37,495 nucleotides of DNA from the NCBI GenBank assembly GCA_947311785.1, contig CAMZLW010000073.1, positions 1 through 37,495 of the forward strand. Reading direction: 5' to 3'. Source of the DNA: an uncultured Ignavibacteriales bacterium. Its GTDB lineage: Bacteria > Bacteroidota > Ignavibacteria > Ignavibacteriales > Melioribacteraceae. Numbering within the stretch: position 1 is the stretch's first letter; each line of letters begins with the position of its first letter. A program made the translations under genes and the position numbers. The notes beneath the pieces were generated by a model that saw only the letters and a program-made list of their open reading frames with translations, had not been told where the DNA came from and searched no databases. Below are positions 477 to 25,138 of this stretch, one piece after another.

Positions 477-3400
477 CTAAAAATCTACACCAATTGAGAA
501 ATAATATTTGGGTTTCGAAAATCCATGAAAGTCGTATGCCCAAGCTACATCAAAACGGAGTAAGAAAAAGAGGATATAAGACCTTGCACCAAAGCCAGTT
601 CCAACCAGCATCCCTTTAGAATAGTCGTCATATTTTTGTTGGAAATTTATTTCTAGTTCTTCGTTCTTTGTCCATGCTGTACCAACATCAACAAATGCAG
701 TTCCAATAACATTTTGGAAAAATATAGGAATTATTGGTCCGGCAAGTAAATACCTAATTATTGGCATTCTTAATTCCAAATTTATAAGCATATATTTTGT
801 TCCAATTTGCTGAGCATAATTGTAACCACGCAGAGGCATTGCTGGGGATAGGAATGCAAAATCGGAAGCATTTTCGATAGGCACAGAGCCAGTTGTAAAA
901 GTTCTGTTAATCCAATTATCTGTTCCGCCAAGCATAAAGCGTTGAGGATTATGCCCACCAGAGTATCCACCAGAAAATCGGAAAACAACGGAATTATCGT
1001 ACATAAATCTTATATATTTTCTATAATCCCAAGTAACCGAGTAGAAACTTTTACGTGGATCGTCAAAGCCAAGATTTCCAAAAATTGTGGCTTTGTATCT
1101 TGTGCCTTGAATAGGGGAGTAGTAACCCCACATTGTGTTATCGTGAACAAAACTTACCGAAGGAATTGAGTAAAATATTTTTTCCATTGGCTCTGCAAAA
1201 TTTTCTAAATTTTCGGAGGAAGTTAAAATTTCACTTAGTGCCACATCAAATCGGTTAAATTTGCTAATAGGAAAACTTGCAGAAACAGTTCCGCCATAAT
1301 TTCTAAAACGGAAAAGATTGTAATAAGGTCCACGGTTTAAATAAACAAAACGTGCAGTGTGAAAAGCCTCAACGCCAATGTTTACTCTTTTTGCAAGATA
1401 GTAATACGAAAGTCCGTAATCGCTATTTTTTAAATCAACTTGAAACCCTGTAACTCCAATTAAACGATGGTTGCCAAGCATATCGCTAAAGGATAGAACA
1501 GTTGTTCCAACCAAGCCATACATTGTGCTGTAGCCAGCATTGGCATATATTAAATCGGGAGTGAAATTTACTTTGTATCTGTTAACGAGATAGTTGCCAT
1601 TTTTATCAAGTTTCTGAGTAAATAATTTTTCTCTCTCTTCTTCTTCGTCGTCATCGTCTTTTGGCTCATACGTATCTGTATTTGGTGAAAAAACATAATT
1701 ACTGTAATCTTTTTTATCGGTTGTATCTTGCACCTCTTCTTCGTCGGTTTCGTCTTGTACTAAGTTTCCAGTAAAAATAAAGTTTCGTTTTTTAGGCTTT
1801 TCCTCTTTTTTATCATCAGTAAATAAAACTTTTGTTTCTTTGGGTTTTTTAGAAGTATCTCGTTTTATAGAGCCACCCAAGAATGCTACTTCTTCGGTAG
1901 AAAATTCATTTTTATTAGCTATTACACTTGCCATAAAATCGGTTAATTGAAGTGAATCAATTTCAATATCCAAGTCGAAAGGATTATCTATTTGGAAAAT
2001 ATTGTAGCCACGCTTGAAAAGAGTGGTATAAACAAGCTTCATTCCATCTTTTGAAAGTGAAAGTTGTTCAAGCTGATTTAACGAATTTGTAATTGGCTTT
2101 GCATTATTGCTAGCAATAAAATTTGTATCGTTTGTGGTATTATTTATTGCCATTTTATAAATGTTGAAAATTCCGTTTTTATCAGAAATGAACAAAATTT
2201 CGTTTCCATTTGGCGAAACAACTGCCGATTTTTCGTCGCTATTTTCCCAATTTGTTAATCGTGTAATTTTATTTGTGTTTAAATTGGTTTGATATAAATC
2301 AACTTGTTCATAATTAAACTCGTATAAATTAAAATTTTGGGGTAGCATAAACGGAGTTAAATATTTACCTCTGTCAGAAGAGAAAAATATGTTTCTGCTA
2401 TTTGGACCCCACGATGGATGCGAATCTGTGAAGATATCGTTTGTAATATTAGTAACTTTTTTTGTGTCAAAATTGTAAACATAAATATCCGATTGCTTTG
2501 CATTGTGGGCATTGAAAGCAATTTTATTTCCGTCTGGCGACCAGCTTACAGACTCAATTCCTCTAAAACTAAATGGTAAACTTCTGTATTCCTTAGTTTC
2601 AACATTTATAATTGTTATAACATCGTTCCCACCTTTTTTTAGTGCAAGAGCAATGTGCTTATTATCGGGCGACCAAGTTAATATTGGATGAAGAACATTA
2701 AGTTCCTCAAAATCGAATGTTGTTCCGCTACTTACAACTTTATCAATCTTTTCTTTATCGTGGATATCTCTAACATAAACATCTAAATAAATATCTCTAT
2801 CGGAAACAAAAGCTATTTTATCGCCAATAGGTGAAATTGTAGGGCTAGTATTGTAGAACCCCATTGTTTTTTTTGTTTCGGTTAATCTTTTGGAAAACTC
2901 ATCTGGCTCTTCGCGTGTTGCTATATCTGGCCAATAGTGAACTTTAATATCTTTCTTCCACTTATCACTTAGCTCTTCTAAAGATAGCCCAAGTGTAGCT
3001 TTTAAGCCAGGCTCAAAGCGACCAAGGTCATTTATTTTTCTAAGAAGTTCTCCAACTTTTTCTCTTCCGTATTTGTCGGCAATATATTTGAAAACCGATT
3101 GCCCACCACGGTATCCAAAATAACCACTTAGCTGCTGGATATCTGGAAGAAAATCATTTATAATTGCATTTCTAATAAACATGTCGGAATTAGTTTCCCA
3201 ATTGCTCGATAAGTATTCTGCCATGCCTTCGTGAAACCAGTGGGGTAGCTGCAACGTAATACCTCGTGAAACAATATTTTGAACTGTTCCACCATAAAGC
3301 ATATCGCGCATTACTGCATGCACTAACTCGTGATGAATTACGTGTCTGTATTTTTTATAATCTCCTTCAAAAGGGAATACAACACGATTTTTAAATGGCT

Positions 3401-3728
3401 CAGTAAAACCTCCGGTGCCTTGCCCAAGATATCCATCAGTTGTGTTTGTTTCTTGAAACTCGTTGTGCGAATTATAAATAATTAAAGAAATTCTGTTGTT
3501 AATTTGGTATTTCAATCTTTCTTGAATATCAGCCAAAGCATCTTCTGCGGCTGCGGCTGCAAACTCGGCATTTACATTTCCACCATCCGAAAAGTAAACA
3601 TCAAAATGTTTTGTTTGGATGTATAGCCAGTCGTACTCTTTGTACTGAACTTTATTTTGCCCAAATTGAGCAAAAATTGGTTGCACAAAAATTAAAATTA
3701 GTAATATGTATTTTTGTAGTTGGTTCAT
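477..3728 (-). CDS. HExxH peptidase / TolB-like propeller / Omp85-like barrel fusion
   Basis: 1083 aa from the ATG at 3728, chosen because it begins directly with a signal peptide (MNQLQKYILLILIFVQPIFAQ). The upstream ATG at 3761 lies inside a repeat. Residues 25-270 resemble peptidase MA-like gluzincins, with HELVH at about 133-137 and a candidate third ligand in HEGMAEY (E about 167). Residues 290-640 carry repeated PD40/TolB-type blades (for example SWSPDGNKIAFN, SPNGNEILFISDKNG). A charged linker with a run of Asp and Glu follows. The last 350 residues look like an Omp85 barrel, with LRGY at about 966-969 (bases 822-833) matching the family's conserved (V/L)RG(F/Y) motif, and a C-terminal Phe. 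No POTRA domains are visible. Probable site: outer membrane with a periplasmic protease-propeller module. The substrate is unknown. It lies downstream of rnr and tamB on the same strand. Confidence 0.8.
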   Translation of the reverse strand: MNQLQKYILLILIFVQPIFAQFGQNKVQYKEYDWLYIQTKHFDVYFSDGGNVNAEFAAAAAEDALADIQERLKYQINNRISLIIYNSHNEFQETNTTDGYLGQGTGGFTEPFKNRVVFPFEGDYKKYRHVIHHELVHAVMRDMLYGGTVQNIVSRGITLQLPHWFHEGMAEYLSSNWETNSDMFIRNAIINDFLPDIQQLSGYFGYRGGQSVFKYIADKYGREKVGELLRKINDLGRFEPGLKATLGLSLEELSDKWKKDIKVHYWPDIATREEPDEFSKRLTETKKTMGFYNTSPTISPIGDKIAFVSDRDIYLDVYVRDIHDKEKIDKVVSSGTTFDFEELNVLHPILTWSPDNKHIALALKKGGNDVITIINVETKEYRSLPFSFRGIESVSWSPDGNKIAFNAHNAKQSDIYVYNFDTKKVTNITNDIFTDSHPSWGPNSRNIFFSSDRGKYLTPFMLPQNFNLYEFNYEQVDLYQTNLNTNKITRLTNWENSDEKSAVVSPNGNEILFISDKNGIFNIYKMAINNTTNDTNFIASNNAKPITNSLNQLEQLSLSKDGMKLVYTTLFKRGYNIFQIDNPFDLDIEIDSLQLTDFMASVIANKNEFSTEEVAFLGGSIKRDTSKKPKETKVLFTDDKKEEKPKKRNFIFTGNLVQDETDEEEVQDTTDKKDYSNYVFSPNTDTYEPKDDDDEEEEREKLFTQKLDKNGNYLVNRYKVNFTPDLIYANAGYSTMYGLVGTTVLSFSDMLGNHRLIGVTGFQVDLKNSDYGLSYYYLAKRVNIGVEAFHTARFVYLNRGPYYNLFRFRNYGGTVSASFPISKFNRFDVALSEILTSSENLENFAEPMEKIFYSIPSVSFVHDNTMWGYYSPIQGTRYKATIFGNLGFDDPRKSFYSVTWDYRKYIRFMYDNSVVFRFSGGYSGGHNPQRFMLGGTDNWINRTFTTGSVPIENASDFAFLSPAMPLRGYNYAQQIGTKYMLINLELRMPIIRYLLAGPIIPIFFQNVIGTAFVDVGTAWTKNEELEINFQQKYDDYSKGMLVGTGFGARSYILFFLLRFDVAWAYDFHGFSKPKYYFSIGVDF

Positions 3729-3751: not shown

Positions 3752-3860
3752 TGTCATTCATGCCCCATGTTTTTTATGGGGAATGTTTTTATCGGAAATC
3801 TTTAACTACATAAGATTCCCCCCAAATGGGCATGCTACGTAAGAGCATCGCAGAATGACA
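3752..3860. repeat. Structured intergenic repeat with 8-bp inverted ends (copy A)
   Basis: The element is bounded by TGTCATTC (3752-3759) and its reverse complement GAATGACA (3853-3860). Inside are several nested stem-loops: CCCCAT/ATGGGG (3763-3781), GGGGAAT with ATTCCCC (3778-3784, 3815-3821), AATCTT/AAGATT (3797-3817) and ATGCT/AGCAT (3832-3848). It fills the gap between rnr and the protease-barrel gene and covers the upstream ATG of the latter. It shares the words GCAGAATG, GCATGCT...AGCATC and GTCATTC with a second element at 25923-25998. It looks like a REP- or MITE-like element; function and mobility are not shown. Confidence 0.5.
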
Positions 3861-3883
3861 TCCTTTTTTAAAACTGTTTTAAA

Positions 3884-5980
3884 TTAGTCAACAATTAAAA
3901 AATCCACTTCTCTTTTTTCTTCATCAACTCTTATTAGTTTTACAGTAACTTTATCTCCAAGTCTGAAAACTCTTTTAGTTCTTCTTCCAATAAGGGAATA
4001 ATTTTTTTCATCAAATTCATAATAGTCATCATCCAAATCGCTCATACGCACTAAGCCTTCTGCAAGATTTTCGTTCACTTCAATGAAGATACCAAAATTT
4101 GTAACTCCAGAAATTATTCCTTCAAAATCGTCTCCGAGCTTATCTTTCAAGAACTCCATCTGTTTTAATTCAACTGAAAGTCTTTCAGCAGAAACAGCAC
4201 TTTTTTCTTGTAGAGACGAGTGTTCACAAATTTCATTTAATTCAACCAAAGAATATAAATGATTATTGTTATTTTCAAGGTAATTATAAGTCAACAAATG
4301 GACAATCAAATCGGGGAATCGTCTAATTGGGGAAGTAAAATGCGAGTAGTTAGGAAACCCCAATCCGTAATGCCCAATATTCTTGGGCGAATAAACAGCC
4401 TTAGCCATTGTGCGTATTGCAATTTCGTTTAATACTGCCTCTTCGCTTGTTCCTTCGGCTTCGGTTAAAAGTAGCTGAAATTCTTTTGATAAATTTTTGC
4501 TTGTGCTGTTAAATTTGTATCCAAGTGATTTTACAAATTGAACAAACTCAAAAAGCTTAGTCTCATCGGGCTTATCGTGAATGCGGTAAACAAATGGACG
4601 AGCATTTTTTTTATCACCTTTATTAAAATGACCAGCCACAACTCTGTTGGCAAGTAACATTAATTCTTCAATTAGTTGATTACTCTCTTTCATTGTTTTT
4701 ATATTTATTGCTAAAGGCTTGCCGTTTTTATCCAACTCAAATTTAATTTCTGGACGTGTAAAATTAATGCTTCCTTTTCTGTTGCGTTCACTTCGTAAAT
4801 GCTTTGCAATTTTATTTAGCTTAGTTATTTCGCTTAGATAATCACCTTTGTTATTTTCAATAATCTCTTGAACTTCTTCGTAAGTAAATCTTCGTTTGCT
4901 GTTGATAATTGTTTTTTTTATTTGATAATTCACAACTTTTATATTTGAATCGAACTCAAGAATAACCGAGTAGGCGAGCCTATCTTTATTGGGAACAAGT
5001 GAGCATAAATTGTTCGAGAGTTTTTCTGGAAGCATTGGTATTACTTTGCCAACAAGATAGACCGATGTAGAGCGTTTCATAGCTTCTTCGTAAACTTTGC
5101 TATTGTGTGTAACGTAATGGCTTACATCTGCAATGTGAATGCCCACAGAGAGGTTTCCATTTTCTAACTTTTTAACAGAGACAGCATCATCAAAATCTTT
5201 TGCATCGGCAGGATCAATTGTAAAAATATCATCTGCTCTTAAATCCAAACGTTTTGCAATTTCTTCGTCAGCAATTTTGGATGAGATATTATCTACTTCT
5301 TTTTCAACTTGAGTAGGGAAGTCAACAGTAAATTCAAACTCCTTTGCAATAGATGCAACTTCAGCATTAAACGATCCAGCTGCACCAAAGTTAGTTGCAA
5401 CAACGCCCTCGGGGTGTGATGAGCGGTTCGATATCATAATATCGGCAACCTCAACTAAGTCGCCAACTTTAGCACCATTTAGGTCTTCGTCGTTAATAAA
5501 AATAATCCGTTGAATTGATTTATCTTTTGGCTCAACAAAAAACAATTTTTTCCGTTTTATAAGAGTTCCAACAATTATATCGTTTTTACGTTCAATTACT
5601 TTTACAACTTCACCCTCAAGGTTTTTCCCTTTTTTATTTGGAAGTAGTTTTACCTCAACTGTATCACCATTAAATGCTAATCCAAAATATTTTTCTGGAA
5701 TAAAAACATCGTTTAATTTTGATTTTTTAAGAATCACAAATGCGTAAGTACCTTCTTTTGATAGTTGAAAAACTCCAACCAGTTTTTTTTGAGAGCTTTT
5801 AACCTTCTCAATTCTTTTCCCTTTGCGAACAAGAAAATCGTCTTTTGTTAAAAAATAAATTGCTTCTTTTAGCTCAGCATATTTTTTTGCTGTGTTGGCA
5901 TTTAATTTTCGTGCTAACTCTTTAACCTTTAATTTAGCATGTGGTTGCTTTTGGAAAAATTGTTTTACTTTAGTTTTCAT
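3884..5980 (-). CDS. rnr: Ribonuclease R
   Basis: 698 aa, the usual RNase R/VacB length range. This is a processive 3'-5' exoribonuclease that degrades structured RNA in the cytoplasm. Order of domains: an N-terminal winged-helix-like region (1-60), cold-shock OB folds (about 65-200), the RNB catalytic domain from about 245 and a C-terminal S1 domain (about 620-698, containing GVTNFGIFIEV). The catalytic aspartate cluster is visible as TIDPADAKDFDDAVSV (D256, D262, D264, D265), followed by GIHIADVSHYV. The ATG at 5980 is the only sensible start. It follows tamB by 57 bases on the same strand and may be co-transcribed with it. All key residues are present and nothing suggests decay. Confidence 0.95.
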   Translation of the reverse strand: MKTKVKQFFQKQPHAKLKVKELARKLNANTAKKYAELKEAIYFLTKDDFLVRKGKRIEKVKSSQKKLVGVFQLSKEGTYAFVILKKSKLNDVFIPEKYFGLAFNGDTVEVKLLPNKKGKNLEGEVVKVIERKNDIIVGTLIKRKKLFFVEPKDKSIQRIIFINDEDLNGAKVGDLVEVADIMISNRSSHPEGVVATNFGAAGSFNAEVASIAKEFEFTVDFPTQVEKEVDNISSKIADEEIAKRLDLRADDIFTIDPADAKDFDDAVSVKKLENGNLSVGIHIADVSHYVTHNSKVYEEAMKRSTSVYLVGKVIPMLPEKLSNNLCSLVPNKDRLAYSVILEFDSNIKVVNYQIKKTIINSKRRFTYEEVQEIIENNKGDYLSEITKLNKIAKHLRSERNRKGSINFTRPEIKFELDKNGKPLAINIKTMKESNQLIEELMLLANRVVAGHFNKGDKKNARPFVYRIHDKPDETKLFEFVQFVKSLGYKFNSTSKNLSKEFQLLLTEAEGTSEEAVLNEIAIRTMAKAVYSPKNIGHYGLGFPNYSHFTSPIRRFPDLIVHLLTYNYLENNNNHLYSLVELNEICEHSSLQEKSAVSAERLSVELKQMEFLKDKLGDDFEGIISGVTNFGIFIEVNENLAEGLVRMSDLDDDYYEFDEKNYSLIGRRTKRVFRLGDKVTVKLIRVDEEKREVDFLIVD

Positions 5981-6037: not shown

Positions 6038-9000
6038 TCAAAAAGAAAATTTATACATTACTCCAAATTCATTTACTTTTTGCGTGTTGTTATACGATGA
6101 AGAAATAATGGGGTCTTTTCTTTCAATTCTCATAATAAATCGCGGGCTAAACAGATACTCAATTTTACCATTTGCTTGGCTCCAATCTACCATTTCGGAA
6201 CTTCCGCCAAAAGTATATCTAAATTCCATTACTCTACCAGAAACGTTGTAGCGAGTCTCTTTTCCTGTTTGATTAATATTTACATTGTTTATAATATTAC
6301 CAAGCCGTGCATTAAGAAACGAAGTTGCCACCGAGCCAAGCATTGAGTATCCAGCAGATTTTGCAATATTAGCACTTTCAGAATCTTTGCTAAAAGTTCC
6401 AAAAAGAAGAAAATACATTGCATCAAGATTTGTGTACTGCGAACTTGGTACGTTGTAATCAATATTTTGAGCACCCGAATATACTTTCATATCCAAAGGC
6501 TTTTCTCCAGATGCCATATTGGTTAATAGTGAATTTACCGAGTCATCAATTTTTATTTTTACAGCAGTCTTAACTGGTTCTGCCTCATCATCCCTTGGGT
6601 TTATGTAGTCAGAAATATATGTTGCAGTTATATTAATAATAGGATTTGTTATATCGGATGTAAATTTAAGGCTACCTTCTGTTGAAAATGTTTTGTAAAA
6701 AGTAAACATCGAACTGGGTAAAATATCAAATTGACCTTGACTGGTAAACTGGTTATTGATGTTTTGTATTTTAAGTTCGCCCGTAAAATCGGCAAGTAGT
6801 TTTTGATTTAATGCTTTCGATAATACCACCGATAGTTTTGAAATATTTGGAGACATAATTTTTATATCTAAATCAAAATCTGCTGGAATAGTGCTTGAGT
6901 CTGCACTCTCTTTTTTAATTAACATTGCGGATAGTAATCTTGCATGTTTAGCCTGTTGTAGTTCGGATGCAGTTGAATCGTTTATAAATATATATTTAAA
7001 GTCGGAGTTAGAGACAGAATAGCTGGATGATTTAGGAATAAAATTTAGACTTAACTCCTCAAGAATTATACTGCCGCTAAAACTCGATTTCTTGTTTTTA
7101 TATATATAATTCCAGGGAGTTCCAGATTTTAGTTGCAAATCGCCATAGAAATTTTGTAGCGTTGCTTTAGAGTAAGGGGATAACACGGCTAACTTGCCAT
7201 TCATTATTATGTTTGCAGAGTTCATTGAAAAGCCATCTAAAATTATTCCGCCCGAAAGAGTAAGCTTACCAGGGAATTGTGTTTTACCATTATTTTTGAT
7301 AAACGAGTTTTCAATTTTAATGTTTTTTTTATCAAACACTAAATTGAAATTTGTAATGTAATCTAAGTTAGAAATGCTGGAGGTAAATTTTATGTTTTCC
7401 GTTGATAAATATCCTGCCAAATTAAAATCGTTCAACTTACCACTTACAGAAATTTCAGAATTAACAATTCCTTGAGGATTTTGTATTGTAGGAATTAGAT
7501 TCCCGAACGAGGCAAGATTAAAATTATTTGTATTCAATTTGAGGGCTAAGTCTTTAGTAGAATCTGTGCTAATAGAATCTTCCAAATCCAAATTAAATGG
7601 GATGTTACCCACAAGTGTTAAAAACTTTTTCCCCTCACTATTAAGTGAATCTAAAAACTCAATATTTGTATTAATGTTTTTATTATTATAATTAATTTTA
7701 CCAAAAAGAGAACCGATATAATTATTTTTAATTAGAAAATTTTTAACAGAAAAATCGATATTATAAATTGGCTTTGTGATAGTTCCTCTAACTTTAGCAT
7801 TTAAATTTATATTTGATTTTGCATTTTGCGAATCAAAAAACTTATCTGCAATAATAGCCCCATCAACATTGGTTAAAGCTAAATCGAAGTTCTGTTCACT
7901 CTTGTTTAGTATAGAGCCATCCAGACTAAGTTTAGAATTACCATTAAACAGATTAAAGTTTTTAATATCAAATTTTGATTTTGTATTAGTTATAAAAATG
8001 GAATCTCTGTTTTGCCAACTATAGTCTTTGTACGAAAAAAACAAGTTGGAAATATTAAGAACTTCGCTCGAATCGGAAAATCCAAAATAACCTTCAAGCC
8101 CTGTATCAAACTCATCATCGATATTTGCTTCAACATTCAGGAACGCTTTGCTTTGGTTAAATATCAAATCGGCTTTTATATTATTAATATTTAAGTTAGA
8201 AACCATCTCTTCCGAGTTTAATGAAAATGTACTAAAAATATTATCGAAGGAATATTTATTGTTATCTGCGCCAACATCAAAGTTACTTTTAACCCCCGAA
8301 ATATAGAAAACCTCTTTGCCTTTAAAGAGAAAAAGCCAATCTAAATCAAGCGTAGTGCTAACTGTAAAGTTATCTAAATCATTTTCCACATAGCCATAAC
8401 CACTACCAGAAATTTCAACTTTATCTCTATTTAAAAGAGCGGCTATCAATTTGAAATCTTTAAAGTTAAAATCGTAATCTAAATAAATATCTTTTTGCGA
8501 ATATTTTCTATCTCTAAGTAATATATCTAAAGTATTGGAAGTATCAGCAGAAAACTTTACAGGATTTATTTCGTTAAGTTTTTGAGTTACAGCATAGCTA
8601 AGTTTTTTTGTTTGGTAGCTAAGTAAATTAAAAGTTTCATCAAGTAAAAAATCACCAGTTATGTTAAAATCTAGTATGTCGGATTTTAAGCTTATTAAAC
8701 GTGTGTTGTCAAGTTTGGATAAATCTATTTGAAAATTAATACTGTCAAATTTGTTTGAGCCAATTACCGAATTTGTAAAATCCATTTTGAAATCACCGAT
8801 GGTTTTATCTAAATCTAAAGATTGTCCGTTTGCATCAAACGTAAAGTTAAGAGATGAACTTAAAGTTGAATCGCCAGTGTAGTAGAGCAAATTTAAGTTT
8901 CTGAATTTCCCTTTAAGATTATAAAGAGGCTTTTCGGTAATGGCTAAATCTAATTTCCCATTTATTTCGGTTTGCATACTATCAAGATTAGAAAAAATTT

Positions 9001-10519
9001 GCAAATCGATTAATTGGTCAATGGTATGTAGCTTTATATTTGCTGTGTCAATTTGATGCCCTCCAATTTGCGAATTTGTAATTACAAATGCTAATCTAGA
9101 ATCTGATTTTTCAGGGTCAAAACCAGCACCCATTAAACTACCTTTTGTATTTAGTATCGAATTAATTCCTAATGATGAATTAAGATTTATATTTCTAGTT
9201 TCAGCAACAAAATTGTATTCAATTAATTCTTTTGTAATATCCATAAAGGCATCAATTGTAAAACTTCCATCACCAATTTTAGCCCCCCCATTAGCATTAA
9301 ATTTTAGTGGCTCGCCTTCATAATCTATATTAATATTTTCAACAAATAAATTGGGATATTTTGGTAATTCTAAACCACTTAAAAAGGAATCAACTTCCTT
9401 GTAAGAAACATCCGAGTTGTAAAAACTGGCTTTTGTGTATAAGTACATTGGTGTGTGTAGCTTTTTAAGATTTCCCTTTATGTTTATTGATGTGGTCTCT
9501 AATTTCCAAGCAGAAGTAAAATCAAAATTTCCGAATCTACCTTTTCCCTCAAAGTTAACAAAAGGTTTACCGTACATAAAATTAGTTGATTCAATAAACG
9601 AGGTTAAGTCACTCATGCTAAAAGGTTGTGCATCTAAATTAAATCTGATAGGATAATCTTTGAAGTCTTTCATGTTAATATCGCCAAATAGATTGAAATC
9701 CTCTAAGCGTGCAGAAAGATTAATCTGTGAGCTATCTGTAATTAGTTCTAAGTTTTTCACTTCGGCAAATTTTTCCGAAAGTAAAATTTGCCCACTAAAA
9801 TTGTGCAGTGTAAACATTTTAAGATTAGGGGTAAAGGATAGTTGAGAAATATCAACAAAAAATTCTTTGTTATTTAGGTTAGCTAATAAATCTAATTTTA
9901 AGTTAAAGTTCTCAATCTCAATATCATCATAGTTCATAGTTTCATATTGTAAATGAGAATCTAAATATCTATTCCCCTTTATTTTGAAGTCTATGTTGCT
10001 GAGTGAAAAATCTGAGACATCAATTAAAAATGGGAACCCACCATCATTACTTTGTTTTGCTGTTGAAGAATCGATAACAACTATAGTTGAAGAAGTATCT
10101 GCTTTTACTATGTTTTCTATATTCCAATGATTTTTTTTTGTTTCTAGTATTTCAAAGTAAACATCTGAAATATTTAGTGTAGTTACCTTAATGCGTTTAG
10201 CAAGTATGTAAAACGGATTAAGAGCAAACTCGATTTTTTTTGCAGAAAAAAGAGTATCCGATTTTTTTTGTAAAGTTATATCCTTAAGTAGCAGATGGGT
10301 GATAAGAGTTCCTTCAACACTGCCAATGTTTAACTTCCCATTAAGTGAGTTATTAGCAATTTCAACAATTTTATCACGAAGAATATTACGAAAAGTTGAG
10401 GTTTGCGAGAAGGCAAAAATTACAGCAAAAATTAAAAATATTGCAACAAAAAACCCAATAATAGAGTTCCCAATTTTTCTTGGAATTGTTCTCTTTATTC
10501 TGTTCTTTCTAAAAATCAT
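6038..10519 (-). CDS. tamB: TamB-like translocation/assembly module protein
   Basis: 1493 aa, large as expected for TamB/DUF490. One N-terminal membrane anchor (about 16-38, IIGFFVAIFLIFAVIFAF) is followed by an AsmA-like start (GKLNIGSVEGTLITHLLLKDI). A very long stretch of beta-rich repeats should form the periplasm-spanning hydrophobic groove. The C-terminal DUF490 region runs from about 1130 (DILPSSMFTFYKTFSTEGSLKF, then LDAMYFLLFGTFS) to the final barrel-like strand ending in FSF. The family links the inner membrane to an Omp85 partner and is implicated in phospholipid transport and outer-membrane protein insertion. No TamA/TamL with POTRA domains is in the window. The start overlaps the end of rfaE2 by four bases, consistent with translational coupling. 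Confidence 0.9.
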   Translation of the reverse strand: MIFRKNRIKRTIPRKIGNSIIGFFVAIFLIFAVIFAFSQTSTFRNILRDKIVEIANNSLNGKLNIGSVEGTLITHLLLKDITLQKKSDTLFSAKKIEFALNPFYILAKRIKVTTLNISDVYFEILETKKNHWNIENIVKADTSSTIVVIDSSTAKQSNDGGFPFLIDVSDFSLSNIDFKIKGNRYLDSHLQYETMNYDDIEIENFNLKLDLLANLNNKEFFVDISQLSFTPNLKMFTLHNFSGQILLSEKFAEVKNLELITDSSQINLSARLEDFNLFGDINMKDFKDYPIRFNLDAQPFSMSDLTSFIESTNFMYGKPFVNFEGKGRFGNFDFTSAWKLETTSINIKGNLKKLHTPMYLYTKASFYNSDVSYKEVDSFLSGLELPKYPNLFVENINIDYEGEPLKFNANGGAKIGDGSFTIDAFMDITKELIEYNFVAETRNINLNSSLGINSILNTKGSLMGAGFDPEKSDSRLAFVITNSQIGGHQIDTANIKLHTIDQLIDLQIFSNLDSMQTEINGKLDLAITEKPLYNLKGKFRNLNLLYYTGDSTLSSSLNFTFDANGQSLDLDKTIGDFKMDFTNSVIGSNKFDSINFQIDLSKLDNTRLISLKSDILDFNITGDFLLDETFNLLSYQTKKLSYAVTQKLNEINPVKFSADTSNTLDILLRDRKYSQKDIYLDYDFNFKDFKLIAALLNRDKVEISGSGYGYVENDLDNFTVSTTLDLDWLFLFKGKEVFYISGVKSNFDVGADNNKYSFDNIFSTFSLNSEEMVSNLNINNIKADLIFNQSKAFLNVEANIDDEFDTGLEGYFGFSDSSEVLNISNLFFSYKDYSWQNRDSIFITNTKSKFDIKNFNLFNGNSKLSLDGSILNKSEQNFDLALTNVDGAIIADKFFDSQNAKSNINLNAKVRGTITKPIYNIDFSVKNFLIKNNYIGSLFGKINYNNKNINTNIEFLDSLNSEGKKFLTLVGNIPFNLDLEDSISTDSTKDLALKLNTNNFNLASFGNLIPTIQNPQGIVNSEISVSGKLNDFNLAGYLSTENIKFTSSISNLDYITNFNLVFDKKNIKIENSFIKNNGKTQFPGKLTLSGGIILDGFSMNSANIIMNGKLAVLSPYSKATLQNFYGDLQLKSGTPWNYIYKNKKSSFSGSIILEELSLNFIPKSSSYSVSNSDFKYIFINDSTASELQQAKHARLLSAMLIKKESADSSTIPADFDLDIKIMSPNISKLSVVLSKALNQKLLADFTGELKIQNINNQFTSQGQFDILPSSMFTFYKTFSTEGSLKFTSDITNPIINITATYISDYINPRDDEAEPVKTAVKIKIDDSVNSLLTNMASGEKPLDMKVYSGAQNIDYNVPSSQYTNLDAMYFLLFGTFSKDSESANIAKSAGYSMLGSVATSFLNARLGNIINNVNINQTGKETRYNVSGRVMEFRYTFGGSSEMVDWSQANGKIEYLFSPRFIMRIERKDPIISSSYNNTQKVNEFGVMYKFSF

Positions 10520-10995: not shown

Positions 10996-11987
10996 TTTGC
11001 TTCTGAAAATAAGTGATTAAATAATTTTTCTTTTTCTATTGGAACAACTCCTGCATCTTCGCAAACTAAACCGCCAGCGTAATTTGCAAGATTAGTTGCT
11101 TCAGATATTGAAGCTCCCGCAAGTAGCGAAATGGTAAGTGTTGAAATAACTGTGTCGCCAGCACCCGAAACATCTAAAACCTTGCGTGCTTTTGTTGGAA
11201 TTATTTCCATTTGTTTACCGCTCTCAAAAATAGCCATTCCATCAGCACCCAATGTTAATAGTATGTATTTGCTATTAATTTTTTTTAATAGTTCAAAACC
11301 AATTTTTTCAATATCGGGTTTAGAATTTATTTTTCTTCCAAAAGAATCTTCTGTTTCTTTTAAATTTGGTTTAAAGACTGTAACGTTTTTGAAATTAAAA
11401 AAGTTTTCAAATTTTGGATCTACAGTAATAACTTTATTTTCTTTGTTAGCAAGTTCAATTATTTTATAAATTAAGTTTTCTGAAAGAACGCCTTTGTTAT
11501 AGTCTTCCAAAATTATTGCGTCAATGCTGTTGATATTATTTTTTAAGGAATCGAAAAGTGTTTGTTCTAATTCCTCCGAAATTTTCTCTTTACTCTCTTT
11601 ATCAATACGCACAATTTGTTGGTCGGCAGATATAACCCGTGTCTTTGTTGTAGTTGGACGCGAAGCATCGTTAATTAGAAAGTCTCCACTCATATTTGCT
11701 TTGTTCACAAGGTCTTTAAATATTGAGGCATTATCATCTTTGCCAAGTAAACCAAAGGGCATAGCGTTTCCACCAAGCTTGGTAATGTTAAGAGCAACAT
11801 TTGCTGCACCACCAAACCTAAAAAACTCATTATCAATTTCAACTATTGGAACTGGTGCTTCTGGAGAAATTCTTTTAACATCGCCCCACAGATATCCATC
11901 AAGCATCATATCGCCAATAATAGCAACGTTAAAATTTTTAAAACTACTTTTTAATTCTAGTAATCTTTTGTGTGTCATATCATTCAT
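10992..11987 (-). CDS. rfaE1: D-glycero-beta-D-manno-heptose-7-phosphate kinase
   Basis: 331 aa from the ATG at 11987. A ribokinase/PfkB-family kinase that phosphorylates heptose 7-phosphate at C1 in ADP-heptose synthesis. The signatures are GDMMLDGYLWGDVKRISPEAPVP near the N-terminus, GGAANVALN, and the catalytic GAGDT loop (about 275-279, Asp 278 as base). The frame is open to an ATG at 12002. AAGGA stands five bases before the ATG at 11987, so that start is preferred; it overlaps the upstream propeller gene by eight bases. Together with the separate adenylyltransferase it replaces the fused HldE of enterobacteria, and implies a heptose-containing LPS core. Confidence 0.93.
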   Translation of the reverse strand: MNDMTHKRLLELKSSFKNFNVAIIGDMMLDGYLWGDVKRISPEAPVPIVEIDNEFFRFGGAANVALNITKLGGNAMPFGLLGKDDNASIFKDLVNKANMSGDFLINDASRPTTTKTRVISADQQIVRIDKESKEKISEELEQTLFDSLKNNINSIDAIILEDYNKGVLSENLIYKIIELANKENKVITVDPKFENFFNFKNVTVFKPNLKETEDSFGRKINSKPDIEKIGFELLKKINSKYILLTLGADGMAIFESGKQMEIIPTKARKVLDVSGAGDTVISTLTISLLAGASISEATNLANYAGGLVCEDAGVVPIEKEKLFNHLFSEAK

Positions 11988-13050
11988 CAATATCCTTAAC
12001 AAAATTTTCTACAAATTTATTAGTGAAATTTATTGCAAACAAACCTTTGTTTGTGCCAAACCAAAGTCTTGTTCCATCAAAATGTAGCGAGTTTACAACC
12101 TTTGGTAGTCCATCAATATTTACCATTTTAATTTCATTAGTTATTCTGTTTATTAGTGCAACACCTCTGCCAAAAACATCTTTGCTGTTTTTACTAAACT
12201 GATATAAAGAAGCCCAAATAAAATTACCAGTAATTTCCAAATCGTAAATTCCATTTCCTTTTAATCCATTTCGTGCATCGTAGCGAGTCCAATCGTTCTT
12301 TCTGTCAAATTTATAAATTCCACCTAAGTTATAATTTGGATTGTTTTTTGTTATAAATTCATCAAGCCCAATCCAAATATTATTTTGCTCAACAAGCATA
12401 GCCGATATTGAAACTGCATCTCCTTCGCCATTAAAATAGTTTAATTTGTTATCGTAAAAAGAGAGGGAAGATTCATCGGAAATATCTTGCGATTTATCAT
12501 ATTTATGAAGACCAGATTCTGAGCCAAACCAAACCAAACTATCGCCATCTACTTTTATCACTTTTATTGTATTGGTTTTCATATTTTCGTTCATTGTTAA
12601 ATCGTAGTCGGTAAATCTACGGCGTTTAAGATCGTATTTTGTTAGATACTTGAAGCGTCCAATCCATACAGCATTAATGTATGGGTCGTATTGCACATCT
12701 CTAATCCAATTACTTAACTGTCCACCTTTGCCGAACTTTCTTTTACTCCAACGTTTTCCTTTTTTATTATAAATAAAAAGTCCATCGGATGAACCAGCCC
12801 AAACAAATTTTTTGTTAGCCGTAATTGTGTAGAAAAAATTATGACGGAGTTTTTTGTTTCTTGTTGAGTAATTATACCACTCTTGCATTCTATAATTAAA
12901 TTGAAAAATTCCATTACCATTTGTAGCAACCCAAAGGTTATTTCCATCGTTACAAATATCACGCACATCTTTGCCATCGAGATAGCTTTCTAGCTCTTGA
13001 GCAACGACAAATGAGTTTAAAAAAAATATTATTAATAGGAAACTTTTCAT
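11980..13050 (-). CDS. Exported seven-bladed Reg_prop beta-propeller protein
   Basis: 356 aa with a signal peptide (MKSFLLIIFFLNSFVVAQ). The rest consists of about seven repeats of the two-component-regulator-propeller (Reg_prop) type, each with a W-x-G/A core: LWVATNGNGIF, VWAGSSDGLF, VWIGRFKYLT, VWFGSESGLH, IWIGLDEFIT, IWASLYQFSK and LWFGTNKGLF. That is enough for one complete propeller. In hybrid two-component sensors such propellers precede a membrane segment and a kinase; neither is present here, so this is a stand-alone periplasmic or surface protein. It sits between the lipoyl gene and the heptose genes. Its 3' end overlaps rfaE1 by eight bases, suggesting co-translation. Binding partner unknown. 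Confidence 0.75.
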   Translation of the reverse strand: MKSFLLIIFFLNSFVVAQELESYLDGKDVRDICNDGNNLWVATNGNGIFQFNYRMQEWYNYSTRNKKLRHNFFYTITANKKFVWAGSSDGLFIYNKKGKRWSKRKFGKGGQLSNWIRDVQYDPYINAVWIGRFKYLTKYDLKRRRFTDYDLTMNENMKTNTIKVIKVDGDSLVWFGSESGLHKYDKSQDISDESSLSFYDNKLNYFNGEGDAVSISAMLVEQNNIWIGLDEFITKNNPNYNLGGIYKFDRKNDWTRYDARNGLKGNGIYDLEITGNFIWASLYQFSKNSKDVFGRGVALINRITNEIKMVNIDGLPKVVNSLHFDGTRLWFGTNKGLFAINFTNKFVENFVKDIDE

Positions 13051-18266: not shown

Positions 18267-20762
18267 TTAAAATCCTTGTCCAAATTGGAAATGGAATACC
18301 CATTGTGGGTCGCGTTTATCAACAGAAAATCTATCAAATCCATATCCATAATCGAAACCAATTAGCCCAATAGGGTTAATTAAAATTCTTGCACCAACAC
18401 CAACAGATTTTTTCAAGTCGTAAAAGTCGGTATTTTTTAAATCTTTATAAACATTACCAGCTTCGGCAAATGCAATAAAGTAAATAGGCATTGGGTCTAA
18501 CGTAAGAGCAACTCTAAACTCAGTTACATATCTTGTCATTACACTACCACCAATTATTCTGCCATTTTCTCGTGGTCCAACAGTTCTATCATCGTAACCA
18601 CGCAATGGAGTTGTTGCAATAACTAAACCATTTCCTCCCATAAAGAAATATTCAAACGGATTAATATGAGTTCCAGCAGTTAGTTCTTCGAGATATCCCA
18701 TATTAATTCCCGCATAGAAAACTAATCTATTAGAATTAAATAATCTACGGTAAAAATCTGTCTTAAATTGCATCTTAAAATAATCTACTTCGCCAGGAAG
18801 AAATGGACCACCACTTAGTTCGGCATTAATCGAAATTTTTGAACCGCGTGATGGGAAAATTGGATTATCAATATCGGTTCTAGAAATAGTAGCACCAACA
18901 GTAAACTGGTTGTACTCACCTTCTTCGTAGTAACTTCCACCATCTTTGATGTTGTTATATTGATATTTTACAATTCCTTGAATGTAGAAATATTTATCAG
19001 GCCAAAGTAATCTTCTTCCAACCCTAAAGGTAATGCCAGTTTGGCGTAAATCGTAGTAGTAGCGTTGGCGAGTATCAAAAATATCAAACCCAACCATTGT
19101 AGGTGAATCCATAAACCAAGGCTCGGTAAAACCGATATTAAAAGTTTGATAATAATTTCCAACACCAAATTGCCAGTTGAAATTAAGAATTTGTCCACCA
19201 CCCATCGAGAAAGGGTGCATAATATTAAAGTTTGTTAAAGTAACGCCAATTGAACCACTAAAGCCATAACTACCACTATAACCAACAGAAGCATTTAAAT
19301 AATCGCTCGACCTTTCTTCAACGCTATATGTTAAATTTACAGTGCTGTCGTTAACTGGTTTGTAATCTATTCCTTTTTGGTAAAGTCCCTCAACATTAAA
19401 ATATTTTAAGTTTGCCAATTGCTGGAGTGAAGAAAAAATTGCTGTTCTGCTAAAGTAATCGCCAGGTATTGTATAAAGCTCTCTGCGTATAACTTTATCC
19501 ATTGTTTTTGTATTACCAGTAATGTTAACTTCACCAACTTTAAATCTTTGGCTCTCATTTATTTTAATATAAATATCAACTGAGTCTTCGGTAACTCTTT
19601 CTTCTTTTGTTGATAGGTTAAAGCCTAAGTAACCATTATCTTGGTAAATGGAGGAAACATCGGTTTGTTTTTCATTGAATCGTAAATTTTGGTTAAAGCG
19701 TTCTAAGTCAAAAACATCACCTTTTTGGAAATCTAACCTAGCACTAAGCACCTTATCACTATATACTGTGTTACCTTCCCATATAATATTTCGTACAACA
19801 ATTTGCGGACCCTCATACACGTTAATAATTACTTCTACTAAAGATTCATCATCGTTATAAACCAAGGAGTCACTTACAATTTCAAAATCTCGGTAACCCT
19901 CTTTGTTGTAAAATGCTTTAAGTAATTCCTTATCCTTTTTATAGTCCTCTTTGCTGAAGGTGTTATCCGACCAAAATTTCCACCAAACTGGTTCTGATGT
20001 TTCTTCCAATTCTGATTTCAAATCGGCACTAGAAAATTTAGAATTATTAACAAACGTAATTTTGGTTACTTCAACTTCTTCGCCTTCTTCAATTGTATAT
20101 ATTAACAGTAATCGGTTTTTGATTCTTCTAATAATATCGCGTCTGCTATCGGGGTCAAAATCATAAACCGTTTTTTCTGTTATTGAGTTGTCATCCATGT
20201 TTTGCCAAGTAACGGTAATTTCGTCATCATCGGTTGTATCCGATTTTGCAAATTCAAATAGGGAAGTAGAAATTTGGGCGTTCATTAAGCCTTCTTCAAC
20301 ATATAGCTTTTTCATTTCGCGTATAGTTTTGTAAATAGCTTGTGGCTTAAGAATTTGACCAGAAACAAATGTAACTGCCTTGTCTAAATCTTCTTCGTCT
20401 AGTTGATCGTTGCCCTTAAAAATATATTTTTCAATGCGGGGATGTTCATTAACTTTTATAACAATAAAAACACCTGTTCCAACTTTTTTTTCTGCTTCAA
20501 TTTTAATATCAGAATTGAAAAGACCTAACTTCCATAACCGTTTAATTGCATCTAAAGTTTGGTCTCCAGGCACTTCTATTTCGTCGCCAATTTTTAATCC
20601 ACTATTAGCAATAACTGTTGCAGGGTCTGCGGTTGTATTGCCACTAACTGTAATGCCTAATATCTTATAATTAACTCTATTAACTTGTGCAAGCATAGTA
20701 GGTGTTGAAATAAGTAGGAATAATGAGCTAATAAATAGCAGTTTAGTTGGGAAGTTTTTCAT
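18267..20762 (-). CDS. bamA: Outer-membrane protein assembly factor BamA
   Basis: 831 aa from the ATG at 20762. The central Omp85 subunit of the barrel assembly machine. A signal peptide (MKNFPTKLLFISSLFLLISTPTMLAQ) precedes POTRA repeats over about residues 28-430 (for example ITVSGNTTADPATVI, KITFVNNSKFSSADLKSEL, VNITGNTKTMDKVIRREL). The C-terminal barrel carries TPLRGYDDRTVGP, with the conserved LRGY of Omp85 proteins, and ends in QFGQGF. The frame is open further upstream to 20813. The chosen ATG begins the signal peptide, has GGGAAAG just before it, and overlaps uppS by 20 bases. An acidic insert (AKSDTTDDDEITVTWQNMDDNS) within the early POTRA region is unusual. It is followed by two skp genes, its usual partners. 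Confidence 0.95.
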   Translation of the reverse strand: MKNFPTKLLFISSLFLLISTPTMLAQVNRVNYKILGITVSGNTTADPATVIANSGLKIGDEIEVPGDQTLDAIKRLWKLGLFNSDIKIEAEKKVGTGVFIVIKVNEHPRIEKYIFKGNDQLDEEDLDKAVTFVSGQILKPQAIYKTIREMKKLYVEEGLMNAQISTSLFEFAKSDTTDDDEITVTWQNMDDNSITEKTVYDFDPDSRRDIIRRIKNRLLLIYTIEEGEEVEVTKITFVNNSKFSSADLKSELEETSEPVWWKFWSDNTFSKEDYKKDKELLKAFYNKEGYRDFEIVSDSLVYNDDESLVEVIINVYEGPQIVVRNIIWEGNTVYSDKVLSARLDFQKGDVFDLERFNQNLRFNEKQTDVSSIYQDNGYLGFNLSTKEERVTEDSVDIYIKINESQRFKVGEVNITGNTKTMDKVIRRELYTIPGDYFSRTAIFSSLQQLANLKYFNVEGLYQKGIDYKPVNDSTVNLTYSVEERSSDYLNASVGYSGSYGFSGSIGVTLTNFNIMHPFSMGGGQILNFNWQFGVGNYYQTFNIGFTEPWFMDSPTMVGFDIFDTRQRYYYDLRQTGITFRVGRRLLWPDKYFYIQGIVKYQYNNIKDGGSYYEEGEYNQFTVGATISRTDIDNPIFPSRGSKISINAELSGGPFLPGEVDYFKMQFKTDFYRRLFNSNRLVFYAGINMGYLEELTAGTHINPFEYFFMGGNGLVIATTPLRGYDDRTVGPRENGRIIGGSVMTRYVTEFRVALTLDPMPIYFIAFAEAGNVYKDLKNTDFYDLKKSVGVGARILINPIGLIGFDYGYGFDRFSVDKRDPQWVFHFQFGQGF

Positions 20763-21555
20763 CTTTCCCAGTTGTTTTATGGTCTTTCGTAATTTGTTCA
20801 CTAACAAGTCCAAATCTTCTCTCTCTACGTTGGAATTCGGTTATAGCTTCAATCAAATTGGATGTATCAAATTTGGGCCAAAGCACATCGGTAACAAAAA
20901 TTTCTGAATATGCAATCTGCCAAAGTAGAAAATTGCTAATTCTCATATCGCCACCACTTCTAATAAGTAGCTCGGGGTCAGGCATTTCTGATGTATTTAA
21001 ATAACTAGAAATAACATCTTCAGAAATATTTTCTACTTTTACATTACCTTTACTAACATCGGTAGCAATTTTTTTTACAGCATTTGTAAGCTCCCATCTT
21101 CCACTATAACTTATGGCTAAATTCAAAGTCATTTTAGTGTTCATTTTGGTCTTCTCAAATGCATCCTCCAATTCTTCTTGAACTTCTTTTGGAAGCATTT
21201 CGCTATTCCCAATTGAAGTTAATCTGATGTTATTTTTATGTAGTTGTTCAGTCTCACTTTTTAAGCTTTTAACAATTAGTCTCATCAATGTTGAGACTTC
21301 AGTTTTGGGTCGCTGCCAATTTTCTGTAGAAAAAGTATAAAGTGTTAAGTATTTAACTCCTAAGTTCGCACACGCTTCAACAATTTCGCGAACGGTTCTA
21401 ATTCCTTTTCTATGACCAGCAGCACGAGGTAAGCCGTTCTGCTTAGCCCAGCGACCGTTACCATCCATAATGATAGCAATGTGTTGCGGAATAAATCCAA
21501 AACTTTTTACTTCTTCAAGTTTGTTAAAATTTTTGTCGGATATGACTTTTTTCAC
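20743..21555 (-). CDS. uppS: Undecaprenyl diphosphate synthase
   Basis: 270 aa. A cis-prenyltransferase that condenses isopentenyl diphosphate onto farnesyl diphosphate to make the C55 lipid carrier for peptidoglycan and O-antigen. IPQHIAIIMDGNGRWAKQNGLPRAAGHRKG holds the catalytic Asp (D31), and PDPELLIRSGGDMRISNFLLWQIAYSE is the C-terminal signature. It starts with GTG at 21555, with GGAAG close upstream; no other start leaves the active site intact. It is the first gene of the envelope train and overlaps bamA by 20 bases. The same uppS-bamA order occurs in many Gram-negative genomes. Confidence 0.96.
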   Translation of the reverse strand: MKKVISDKNFNKLEEVKSFGFIPQHIAIIMDGNGRWAKQNGLPRAAGHRKGIRTVREIVEACANLGVKYLTLYTFSTENWQRPKTEVSTLMRLIVKSLKSETEQLHKNNIRLTSIGNSEMLPKEVQEELEDAFEKTKMNTKMTLNLAISYSGRWELTNAVKKIATDVSKGNVKVENISEDVISSYLNTSEMPDPELLIRSGGDMRISNFLLWQIAYSEIFVTDVLWPKFDTSNLIEAITEFQRRERRFGLVSEQITKDHKTTGKDEKLPN

Positions 21556-23125: not shown

Positions 23126-25138
23126 CTATTTGGTTAACAAAAGCTTAATAGTTTTTGTCTCGTTCTTTGTTATAATCTGCGAAAAATAAACTCCCGATGG
23201 TAAGTTATTTGCTTCAAAAAATATTTTATGTGTGCCAGAGGTTATATTTTTATCCAACAATGTTGTTACAAGATTTCCAATAACATCATACACTTTAATA
23301 GATACGTGTGAACTCTCTTTTAGTTGATATTCCAGTGTTGTTGTGGGGTTAAAGGGATTTGGGTAAGCTGAAATTAAATTATAGGTCTCTGGATTATTGA
23401 AATCGTTAACAGATGTTGGTGCTTTAGTAGTAAAGCTAATTATTTTGTTCATTCCAAAAGTATAATTCTCCGTTTCAGATATTCCTTCTTTTAAGTGAAT
23501 TGTATAAGTGCTGTTTTCATCTAAGAGTGCTTGCGGTGTGAACCTAATAATTCCAGCAGAGTATTCGCTTGCATTAACGCTTATTGGAACAGCTTTGCCT
23601 TCACTATCAAGAAAAAGAACATTACCACCAAGCGAACTAGCTTTTAGTGAGCCATCAAACTTTAATCCTACTGTAACATTTGTTGCAATATTATTATCTC
23701 CATCTTTAGGATAGTTTGCAATAAGGGAAAGATTGTCTCGTGCCTTTGTTACAAAACTTAATTCGATGTCATTTTCAAGCGGAACATCCCAATTACTCAT
23801 TGCTGTTTTGCTAATTTTAAAAATGTAATTTGTATGTTTTATAAAAGTAGGGGATGGTGTAAAATAAACAATGTTATTTTCACTATTCCAGCTTATAGTT
23901 CCAAAAGCATTTGGTGTAATGGTAATAGCATTTTCAACTGAAGTTTTATTCATTGGGTGTGTAAACTCGATAGATACTTTTTTTGAAAGATATGCACTAT
24001 CAACTTTTGCGTTTGGATAAGTTGCAATAACTTTGGGAGCGGCAGAAACATCAAGAACTTTTGAGGCAGTTAATTCTCTAATGGATTGCATTCTGTTTTT
24101 TATTTGTGTCCCTGGGCAAGAAGTTCCGCCACCGCTTTGTCCGTGACCAGTAATGTTGTCGTTTGTTTTGCCTATCGCATTATGATAACTTTTCCCCTCA
24201 GGGTCAATTCCATATTTAGTGGATAAAAATGCAGAAATAGATGCAAGCATATTTAGCCCCTTATCACTTGGAATATTAGAAACATAATTTCCAATAAAAC
24301 AAATTCCAACGGTATTACCATTTTTCCCAGAATTGTGTGCCCCCATAACATTTTCTTGAGTTGAGCTTTTCCACGCTCTACCTTTGTATAATACGCCGTT
24401 TGGATCAACTAACCAGTTGTATCCAATATCTGCCCAGCCATGTGTATTAACATGGTAGTTCCAATAGGATTTTACTACTGCAGCATAATCATTTGAAACA
24501 GTGCTACCAGCACTATGGTGAATAATAATGTGTGTAACATTAGTTAAACTCCTTGAGCTTACATTTTCACCTTGTGGGCATCCCCAACCTTTTCTGGTAA
24601 CATAAGCAGGTCTTTCAATTCCACCAAGAGTTTTGTTTAGCTTTGATTGTTGAATGCTTTTTTCAATTTGTGCTTTATCAGTTTTGCCTGGACTAATAAA
24701 GCTAAAACTCAAATCCTCTATGTTGGAAAAAACATTAGTATGAAACTGAATAAATTTATTCTCTTTATCAAAAAAGGAAAGGGAGCTAATAAACTTGTTT
24801 TTTATTTGTTCTCCTTCATTGTCTTTTTCTACTAATTGCCAATTGCTCCAATTGTCCCCATCTTTTGAAACTCTCAAGTAAAAATGAGCATTATCTTTTC
24901 CAGTTGTGATAGTTGCACTTAAACCGATAGCAATAAAGGGTTCAGGATTTTCTATAGGAATTTCAATTGCTTCCGATAAAAATTCTGAAGGAACTGCTTT
25001 AGATAGGTTGCCTACAGGAGAGTATTCAATTTTTTTGTTTATCATTTCCTGTCCACTTACCGATATGGTAACGAATAGGAATAATAAGCTTATTATTTGA
25101 TATTTGGTTTTTTGTAATGTTTGCACAAAATACTCCAT
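23126..25138 (-). CDS. Secreted N-acetylmuramoyl-L-alanine amidase with T9SS sorting domain
   Basis: 670 aa. A signal peptide (hydrophobic IISLLFLFVTISVSGQ) is followed by an N-terminal beta-rich region and an Amidase_2/PGRP domain (about 175-345). Zinc-site residues are visible in THIIIHHSAGS and GHGQSGGGTSCPG, with WADIGYNWLVDPNGVLYKGR and GAHNSGKNGNTVGICFIGNY between. Two Big_5-type Ig-like domains follow (about 370-570: FTHPMNKTSVENAITITP, then GDNNIATNVTVGLKFDG). The C-terminus SAYPNPFNPTTTLEYQL...YDVIGNLVTTL...LPSGVYF is a Por type A sorting signal for type IX secretion. It probably cleaves peptidoglycan outside the cell or at its surface. A GTG at 25126 has a better-placed GGAG than the ATG at 25138 and may be the true start. 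Confidence 0.9.
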   Translation of the reverse strand: MEYFVQTLQKTKYQIISLLFLFVTISVSGQEMINKKIEYSPVGNLSKAVPSEFLSEAIEIPIENPEPFIAIGLSATITTGKDNAHFYLRVSKDGDNWSNWQLVEKDNEGEQIKNKFISSLSFFDKENKFIQFHTNVFSNIEDLSFSFISPGKTDKAQIEKSIQQSKLNKTLGGIERPAYVTRKGWGCPQGENVSSRSLTNVTHIIIHHSAGSTVSNDYAAVVKSYWNYHVNTHGWADIGYNWLVDPNGVLYKGRAWKSSTQENVMGAHNSGKNGNTVGICFIGNYVSNIPSDKGLNMLASISAFLSTKYGIDPEGKSYHNAIGKTNDNITGHGQSGGGTSCPGTQIKNRMQSIRELTASKVLDVSAAPKVIATYPNAKVDSAYLSKKVSIEFTHPMNKTSVENAITITPNAFGTISWNSENNIVYFTPSPTFIKHTNYIFKISKTAMSNWDVPLENDIELSFVTKARDNLSLIANYPKDGDNNIATNVTVGLKFDGSLKASSLGGNVLFLDSEGKAVPISVNASEYSAGIIRFTPQALLDENSTYTIHLKEGISETENYTFGMNKIISFTTKAPTSVNDFNNPETYNLISAYPNPFNPTTTLEYQLKESSHVSIKVYDVIGNLVTTLLDKNITSGTHKIFFEANNLPSGVYFSQIITKNETKTIKLLLTK

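Follow-up and report, generated by a model that had tools for sequence, protein, structure and literature searches.

A predicted zinc peptidase, TolB-like propeller and Omp85 barrel in a single chain, encoded near tamB in an Ignavibacteriales bacterium

Introduction

The closest described system is the WD40-Omp85 subfamily, named in 2014 in the main text of Heinz & Lithgow for proteins that join a propeller to an Omp85 barrel and lack POTRA domains (PMC4104836). According to that text, TolB is the closest propeller to that of the subfamily, the arrangement is akin to a BamA-BamB fusion, and Omp85 proteins are defined by their barrel alone (PMC4104836). The same text describes a 'Metallo' Omp85 subfamily (PF00149) and calls its N-terminal enzyme a metalloprotease (PMC4104836). 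In having a metal-dependent N-terminal enzyme and an Omp85 barrel, this second subfamily resembles the 1083-residue protein analysed here. PF00149 itself we take to be the calcineurin-like phosphoesterase family and not an HExxH peptidase.

Patatin-Omp85 proteins such as PlpD also combine an N-terminal enzyme with a C-terminal Omp85 barrel; theirs is a patatin lipase with one POTRA domain, whereas the 1083-residue protein has a predicted zinc peptidase and a propeller. The N-terminal enzyme domain of PlpD stays in the periplasm (PMC11116518). BepA, a periplasmic M48 metalloprotease, breaks down LptD that has stalled as well as BamA that is misassembled, and probably does so at the BAM complex (PMC8423444). 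It is an HExxH zinc protease, as the 1083-residue protein appears to be, and action at the barrel assembly site is proposed below for the latter; BepA, however, is soluble, has a TPR domain, belongs to a different peptidase family and is not fused to a barrel. TamA and TamL share the Omp85 barrel, and the gene described here lies near tamB, but both carry POTRA domains and TamL a lipid anchor, features that the 1083-residue protein lacks.

As judged from domain matches and structural models, the 1083-residue protein has the WD40-Omp85 architecture of an N-terminal TolB-like propeller and an Omp85 barrel with no POTRA domain. It differs in its peptidase domain, which goes unmentioned in the 2014 main text, where no word begins with 'peptidase' (PMC4104836). 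A literature search for the combination of peptidase, propeller and Omp85 barrel returned that paper alone as relevant, and found no experimental study of the family. The propeller-barrel design that the original prediction had put forward was thus already described in 2014, and the family itself is widespread and unstudied.

Results

The gene and its product

The window, that is the whole stretch of DNA analysed (37 495 nucleotides), is the entire contig C73 of a draft genome of 2.85 Mb that is ∼ 95% complete, and all coordinates refer to it. An open reading frame of 1083 amino acids spans 480-3728 on the minus strand, with an ATG at 3728 and a stop codon at 477-479, and a plus-strand reading of 477-3728 was ruled out by stops throughout. 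In the predicted product a signal peptide leads into the Peptidase_MA_2 domain, a six-bladed TolB-like propeller comes next, and a disordered linker joins it to a 16-stranded Omp85 barrel; all structural statements made about this protein are predictions. Its features are as follows.

480..3728, minus strand: complete coding sequence, 1083 amino acids
3669..3728, minus strand: putative signal peptide, residues ∼ 1-20, MNQLQKYILLILIFVQPIFAQ (read by eye; orthologs show the same pattern)
2919..3641, minus strand: Peptidase_MA_2-like zinc metallopeptidase domain, residues ∼ 30-270 (PF13485)
3318..3332, minus strand: HELVH zinc-binding motif, residues 133-137 (H133, E134 and H137 in 107/107 sequences)
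3228..3230, minus strand: E167 in WFHEGMAEY, probable third zinc ligand (107/107)
1959..2906, minus strand: six-bladed TolB-like propeller, residues ∼ 275-590 (PD40, and structure match to TolB)
1584..1907, minus strand: mildly acidic, poorly predicted linker, residues ∼ 608-715 (pLDDT mostly < 50)
480..1562, minus strand: 16-stranded Omp85 barrel, residues ∼ 723-1083 (predicted model)
822..833, minus strand: LRGY, residues 966-969, in loop L6 between strands 11 and 12 (R967 in 107/107, G968 in 105/107)
774..776, minus strand: E985 on strand 12, expected partner of the L6 arginine (106/107; pairing by analogy with BamA)
687..689, minus strand: D1014 on strand 13, expected partner of the L6 arginine (107/107; pairing by analogy with BamA)

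The putative signal peptide is devoid of a lipobox cysteine. A Pfam scan of the protein gave no match to the Omp85 model PF01103, to POTRA (PF07244) or to Peptidase_M48 (PF01435). When 45 family members were scanned, PD40 was found in 45/45, Peptidase_MA_2 in 42/45 and PF01103 in 11/45 (E-values up to 0.01, the best being 2e-16). Since PF01103 matches other members, curated models do reveal the fusion in the family, even though this model misses the 1083-residue protein itself. The core of the original prediction, a protease-like domain, a propeller and an Omp85-type barrel in one chain without POTRA domains and near tamB, has stood; two of its arguments, dealt with below, are not supported.

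The peptidase domain

PF13485 covers residues 60-261 with an E-value of 2.4e-12 (47.5 bits against a cut-off of 32.4). An NCBIfam flagellinolysin profile also matches residues 126-260, at an E-value of 2.8e-9 that is below its cut-off. The HELVH motif and the downstream glutamate of EGMAEY, from which a peptidase had been proposed, are both present, and together with the profile match above cut-off they point to a member of the MA clan (PF13485). When the protein was shuffled 5000 times, HExxH with a spaced EG or EA arose in 10 cases; a chance origin was excluded for HExxH by its invariance in 107/107 homologs, and for LRGY by its conservation.

The propeller and the linker

PD40 repeats run from residue 290 onward (E-value 4.5e-20), in keeping with the long PD40-like region seen at first reading. 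The propeller part of the full-length model superposes on Escherichia coli TolB (1crz) with a VIA-align Z of 26.1 and an rmsd of 2.4 over 242 residues. The linker that follows contains 30 D/E and 20 K/R residues, and its length varies within the family. It is mildly acidic, as had been noted, but this charge is not conserved in the family, and a conserved acidic linker was therefore rejected as a feature. The idea that the propeller replaces POTRA is not supported by the model, in which ∼ 100 poorly predicted residues lie between propeller and barrel. A flexible linker would leave the orientation of the soluble part unfixed.

A long flexible linker could also reach through the pore of the barrel, and the enzyme-linker-barrel order is that of patatin-Omp85 proteins. 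Both points would suit a barrel through which peptidase and propeller pass to the cell surface, a route (type Vd secretion) that PlpD was at one time proposed to take, and flagellinolysins, which the peptidase domain weakly matches, act outside the cell (PMC5595980). We nevertheless regard a surface enzyme as very unlikely, given that PlpD, the best-studied case, proved to be periplasmic (PMC11116518), that a folded six-bladed propeller would be an improbable cargo for a 16-stranded barrel, and that near-universal conservation better suits a housekeeping role than a secreted factor. Because the enzyme domain of PlpD is periplasmic, a periplasmic protease is the default for the 1083-residue protein.

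The barrel

The first full-length model drew on 33 close sequences and its barrel was poor (pTM 0.47); it was superseded by a barrel-only model, ma0d8d72c4666, built from 87 diverse sequences, which has 16 long strands, a pLDDT of 90.3 and a pTM of 0.84. A fold search with this model, as the original prediction had proposed, gave Deinococcus radiodurans BamA (8xnb) at a Z of 26.2 and an rmsd of 3.5 over 313 residues, TamA at a Z of 22-23 and FhaC at a Z of 21.8; the best 50 structural matches are all Omp85 proteins (BamA, TamA, FhaC, Sam50). From sequence, the family profile finds the solved BamA 5or1 with an E-value of 8e-10. LRGY occurs once in the protein, at residue 966, and the C-terminal residue is Phe, both as originally noted. 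The number of strands and the position of LRGY in L6, on which the barrel assignment had been made to depend, are those of BamA and TamA in the model. With this predicted fold, a (V/L)RG(F/Y) motif in L6 and a recognisable family sequence, the barrel may be counted as Omp85. In the classical definition, an Omp85 protein carries at least one POTRA domain; the 1083-residue protein carries none.

Conservation and distribution

Across 107 sequences from the phylum, reaching down to ∼ 25% identity, no change is seen at H133, E134, H137, E167, R967 or D1014, while E985 and R987 differ in one divergent row of the 107. An apparent loss of R967 in 13/83 rows of an early alignment was traced to misalignment, the better 107-row alignment showing none. 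The original prediction had been staked on the conservation of HExxH among homologs, and every one of the 107 retains it. On sequence grounds the protein thus appears to keep the gate residues of BamA and TamA, namely the L6 Arg-Gly, a Glu on strand 12 and an Asp on strand 13. The invariance of catalytic as well as gate residues speaks for function in both halves, and hence for a probable active enzyme joined to a working Omp85 mechanism rather than to a mere anchor. Such invariance shows that the residues matter; it does not tell their function.

A full-length ortholog is present in 37 of 38 near relatives (the exception being genome G015), and of 198 genomes that sample the phylum, 124 have a homolog at 1e-40. 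Paralogs also exist, including a second, shorter one of ∼ 945 residues and others of 1040-1110 residues. The genome to which the window belongs encodes a divergent second protease-propeller-barrel copy of 1032 residues (contig C163, L184:1192-4290), with HEFTH, a propeller, a barrel end, a long insert before WFAEGTAQY, and MKGY where LRGY would be expected. A scan of genome contigs returned only close relatives and one propeller-only match in a Holophagae. The protease-propeller-barrel family is widespread in the phylum and is not peculiar to one genome.

A proposed tethered protease at the outer membrane

The reading that we prefer, with a probability of roughly 0.45, is that of a periplasmic zinc protease anchored in the outer membrane, with BamA-like gate residues and a BepA-like action on stalled barrel proteins. 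The barrel would sit in the outer membrane and place the protease at the assembly site, and a flexible tether would hold the peptidase and propeller in the periplasm; the propeller might bind a partner or client, and the peptidase would cut barrel proteins or lipoproteins stalled at the membrane. The periplasmic side of the soluble part is suggested by analogy, and proteolytic cutting and its substrate are likewise our suggestion. Peptidase_M48, the BepA family, was not found at an E-value of 0.001 in the genome (one draft, ∼ 95% complete), and this, together with the precedents of PlpD and BepA, makes tethered BepA-like quality control the best supported role. The position of the gene in a co-directional block with bamA, described below, also speaks for this reading. 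Outer-membrane protein quality control is also the most testable one, given the fully conserved protease site.

The peptidase could instead have a single dedicated substrate. It would then serve the maturation of one class of envelope protein, such as T9SS cargo or lipoproteins, which it would trim while the barrel anchors it. The conserved active site fits this, and a T9SS sorting tail encoded on the same contig indicates that such cargo exists; however, no substrate gene is consistently adjacent, and a mere anchor would not need conserved gate residues, so that we hold a maturation protease to be distinctly unlikely.

A bolder version of the tethered protease, which we think quite improbable, would be an Omp85 assembly factor of a third kind, its protease built covalently into an insertase. 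Clients of TamB or BAM would meet one of two fates, insertion through the barrel gate or cleavage by the tethered zinc protease, and the TolB-like propeller would stand in for POTRA as client sensor. If this mechanism were true, assembly and destruction of outer-membrane proteins would be coupled in a single polypeptide, and point mutations of E134 and R967 could directly test an insert-or-destroy decision in which BAM and soluble proteases (BepA, for instance) otherwise share.

Genomic neighbourhood and the link to tamB

The gene is the last of a co-directional block that comprises bamA, two skp genes, lpxD, lpxC-fabZ, lpxA, a lipoate ligase, a small propeller protein, two hldE parts, the tamB-like gene, rnr and the 1083-residue reading frame. 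Three of these genes bear on the argument.

3884..5980, minus strand: rnr (RNase R), directly upstream of the 1083-residue gene (TIGR02063, E-value 3e-218)
6038..10519, minus strand: TamB-like AsmA-family protein, two genes upstream (NF047952 TamB, E-value 2e-20, below cut-off)
18267..20813, minus strand: BamA with POTRA domains, on the same contig (TIGR03303, E-value 5e-125, above cut-off; PF07244, PF01103)

The Pfam TamB model PF04357 gave no match to the protein encoded at 6038-10519. In the order and class, 49 of 52 distinct genomes have rnr directly upstream; farther afield (loci L088-L130), tamB plus rnr lie upstream of the homolog at 14 of 43 loci. The proximity to tamB that the original prediction had asked about is found in many genomes. 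The tamB-rnr-homolog order occurs on both sides of the main ortholog tree (a quick tree with a midpoint root). As order and direction are the same across the order, in distant classes and on both sides of the tree, the arrangement is probably ancestral.

This shared order and direction, together with the conserved gate residues, would suit a protein that is mainly the transport or insertion partner of TamB: TamB would bring lipids or proteins to the barrel, and the peptidase would act as regulator or cargo editor. Several observations make this rather unlikely. The tamB-rnr pair is kept together in seven genomes in which the homolog lies elsewhere, and rnr may be the tighter neighbour; genomes of family f21 of the phylum have tamB and lack the homolog. 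The linkage to tamB is therefore old, yet not exclusive. In addition, TamL and TamB of Bacteroidota co-purify despite being encoded outside a common operon (PMC12045153). The original case for a TamB partner, that no TamA or TamL was in view, is not supported, because BamA with its POTRA domains lies in the window and a 707-residue TamL/BamA-like POTRA-Omp85 protein is encoded on contig C43 (BamA model 4e-49, TamL model 3.5e-48, both below cut-off). These POTRA-bearing Omp85 proteins give TamB ordinary candidate partners in the same genome. Where the homolog does not adjoin tamB, no other Omp85 gene was found to do so, except for an 802-residue barrel match in genome G059, which is perhaps a TamB2-TamL2-like pair.

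Other Omp85 proteins of the genome are a 593-residue BamA-like protein (contig C14), two PlpD-like patatin-POTRA-Omp85 fusions (L075 on contig C100 and L077 on contig C121) and two further barrels with no recognised N-terminal domain. Downstream genes were rejected as partners of the 1083-residue protein, since in relatives they are housekeeping genes (prs, rplY, pth, H+-pyrophosphatase, rpsF, ssb, rplI, secDF).

Elsewhere in the window, the small propeller protein of the block (11980-13050, minus strand) has a weak match to the PorZ N-propeller, and its gene is kept between lipoate ligase and hldE in relatives. The minus strand at 23126-25138 encodes an Amidase_2 protein that also carries Big_5 domains and, for sorting by the T9SS, a Por_Secre_tail domain. 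Between rnr and the 1083-residue gene lies a repeat (3752-3861, minus strand) with inverted ends, TGTCATTC...GAATGACA, of which the genome holds 10 more partial copies at 69-89% identity; it is possibly a MITE or a REP-like element.
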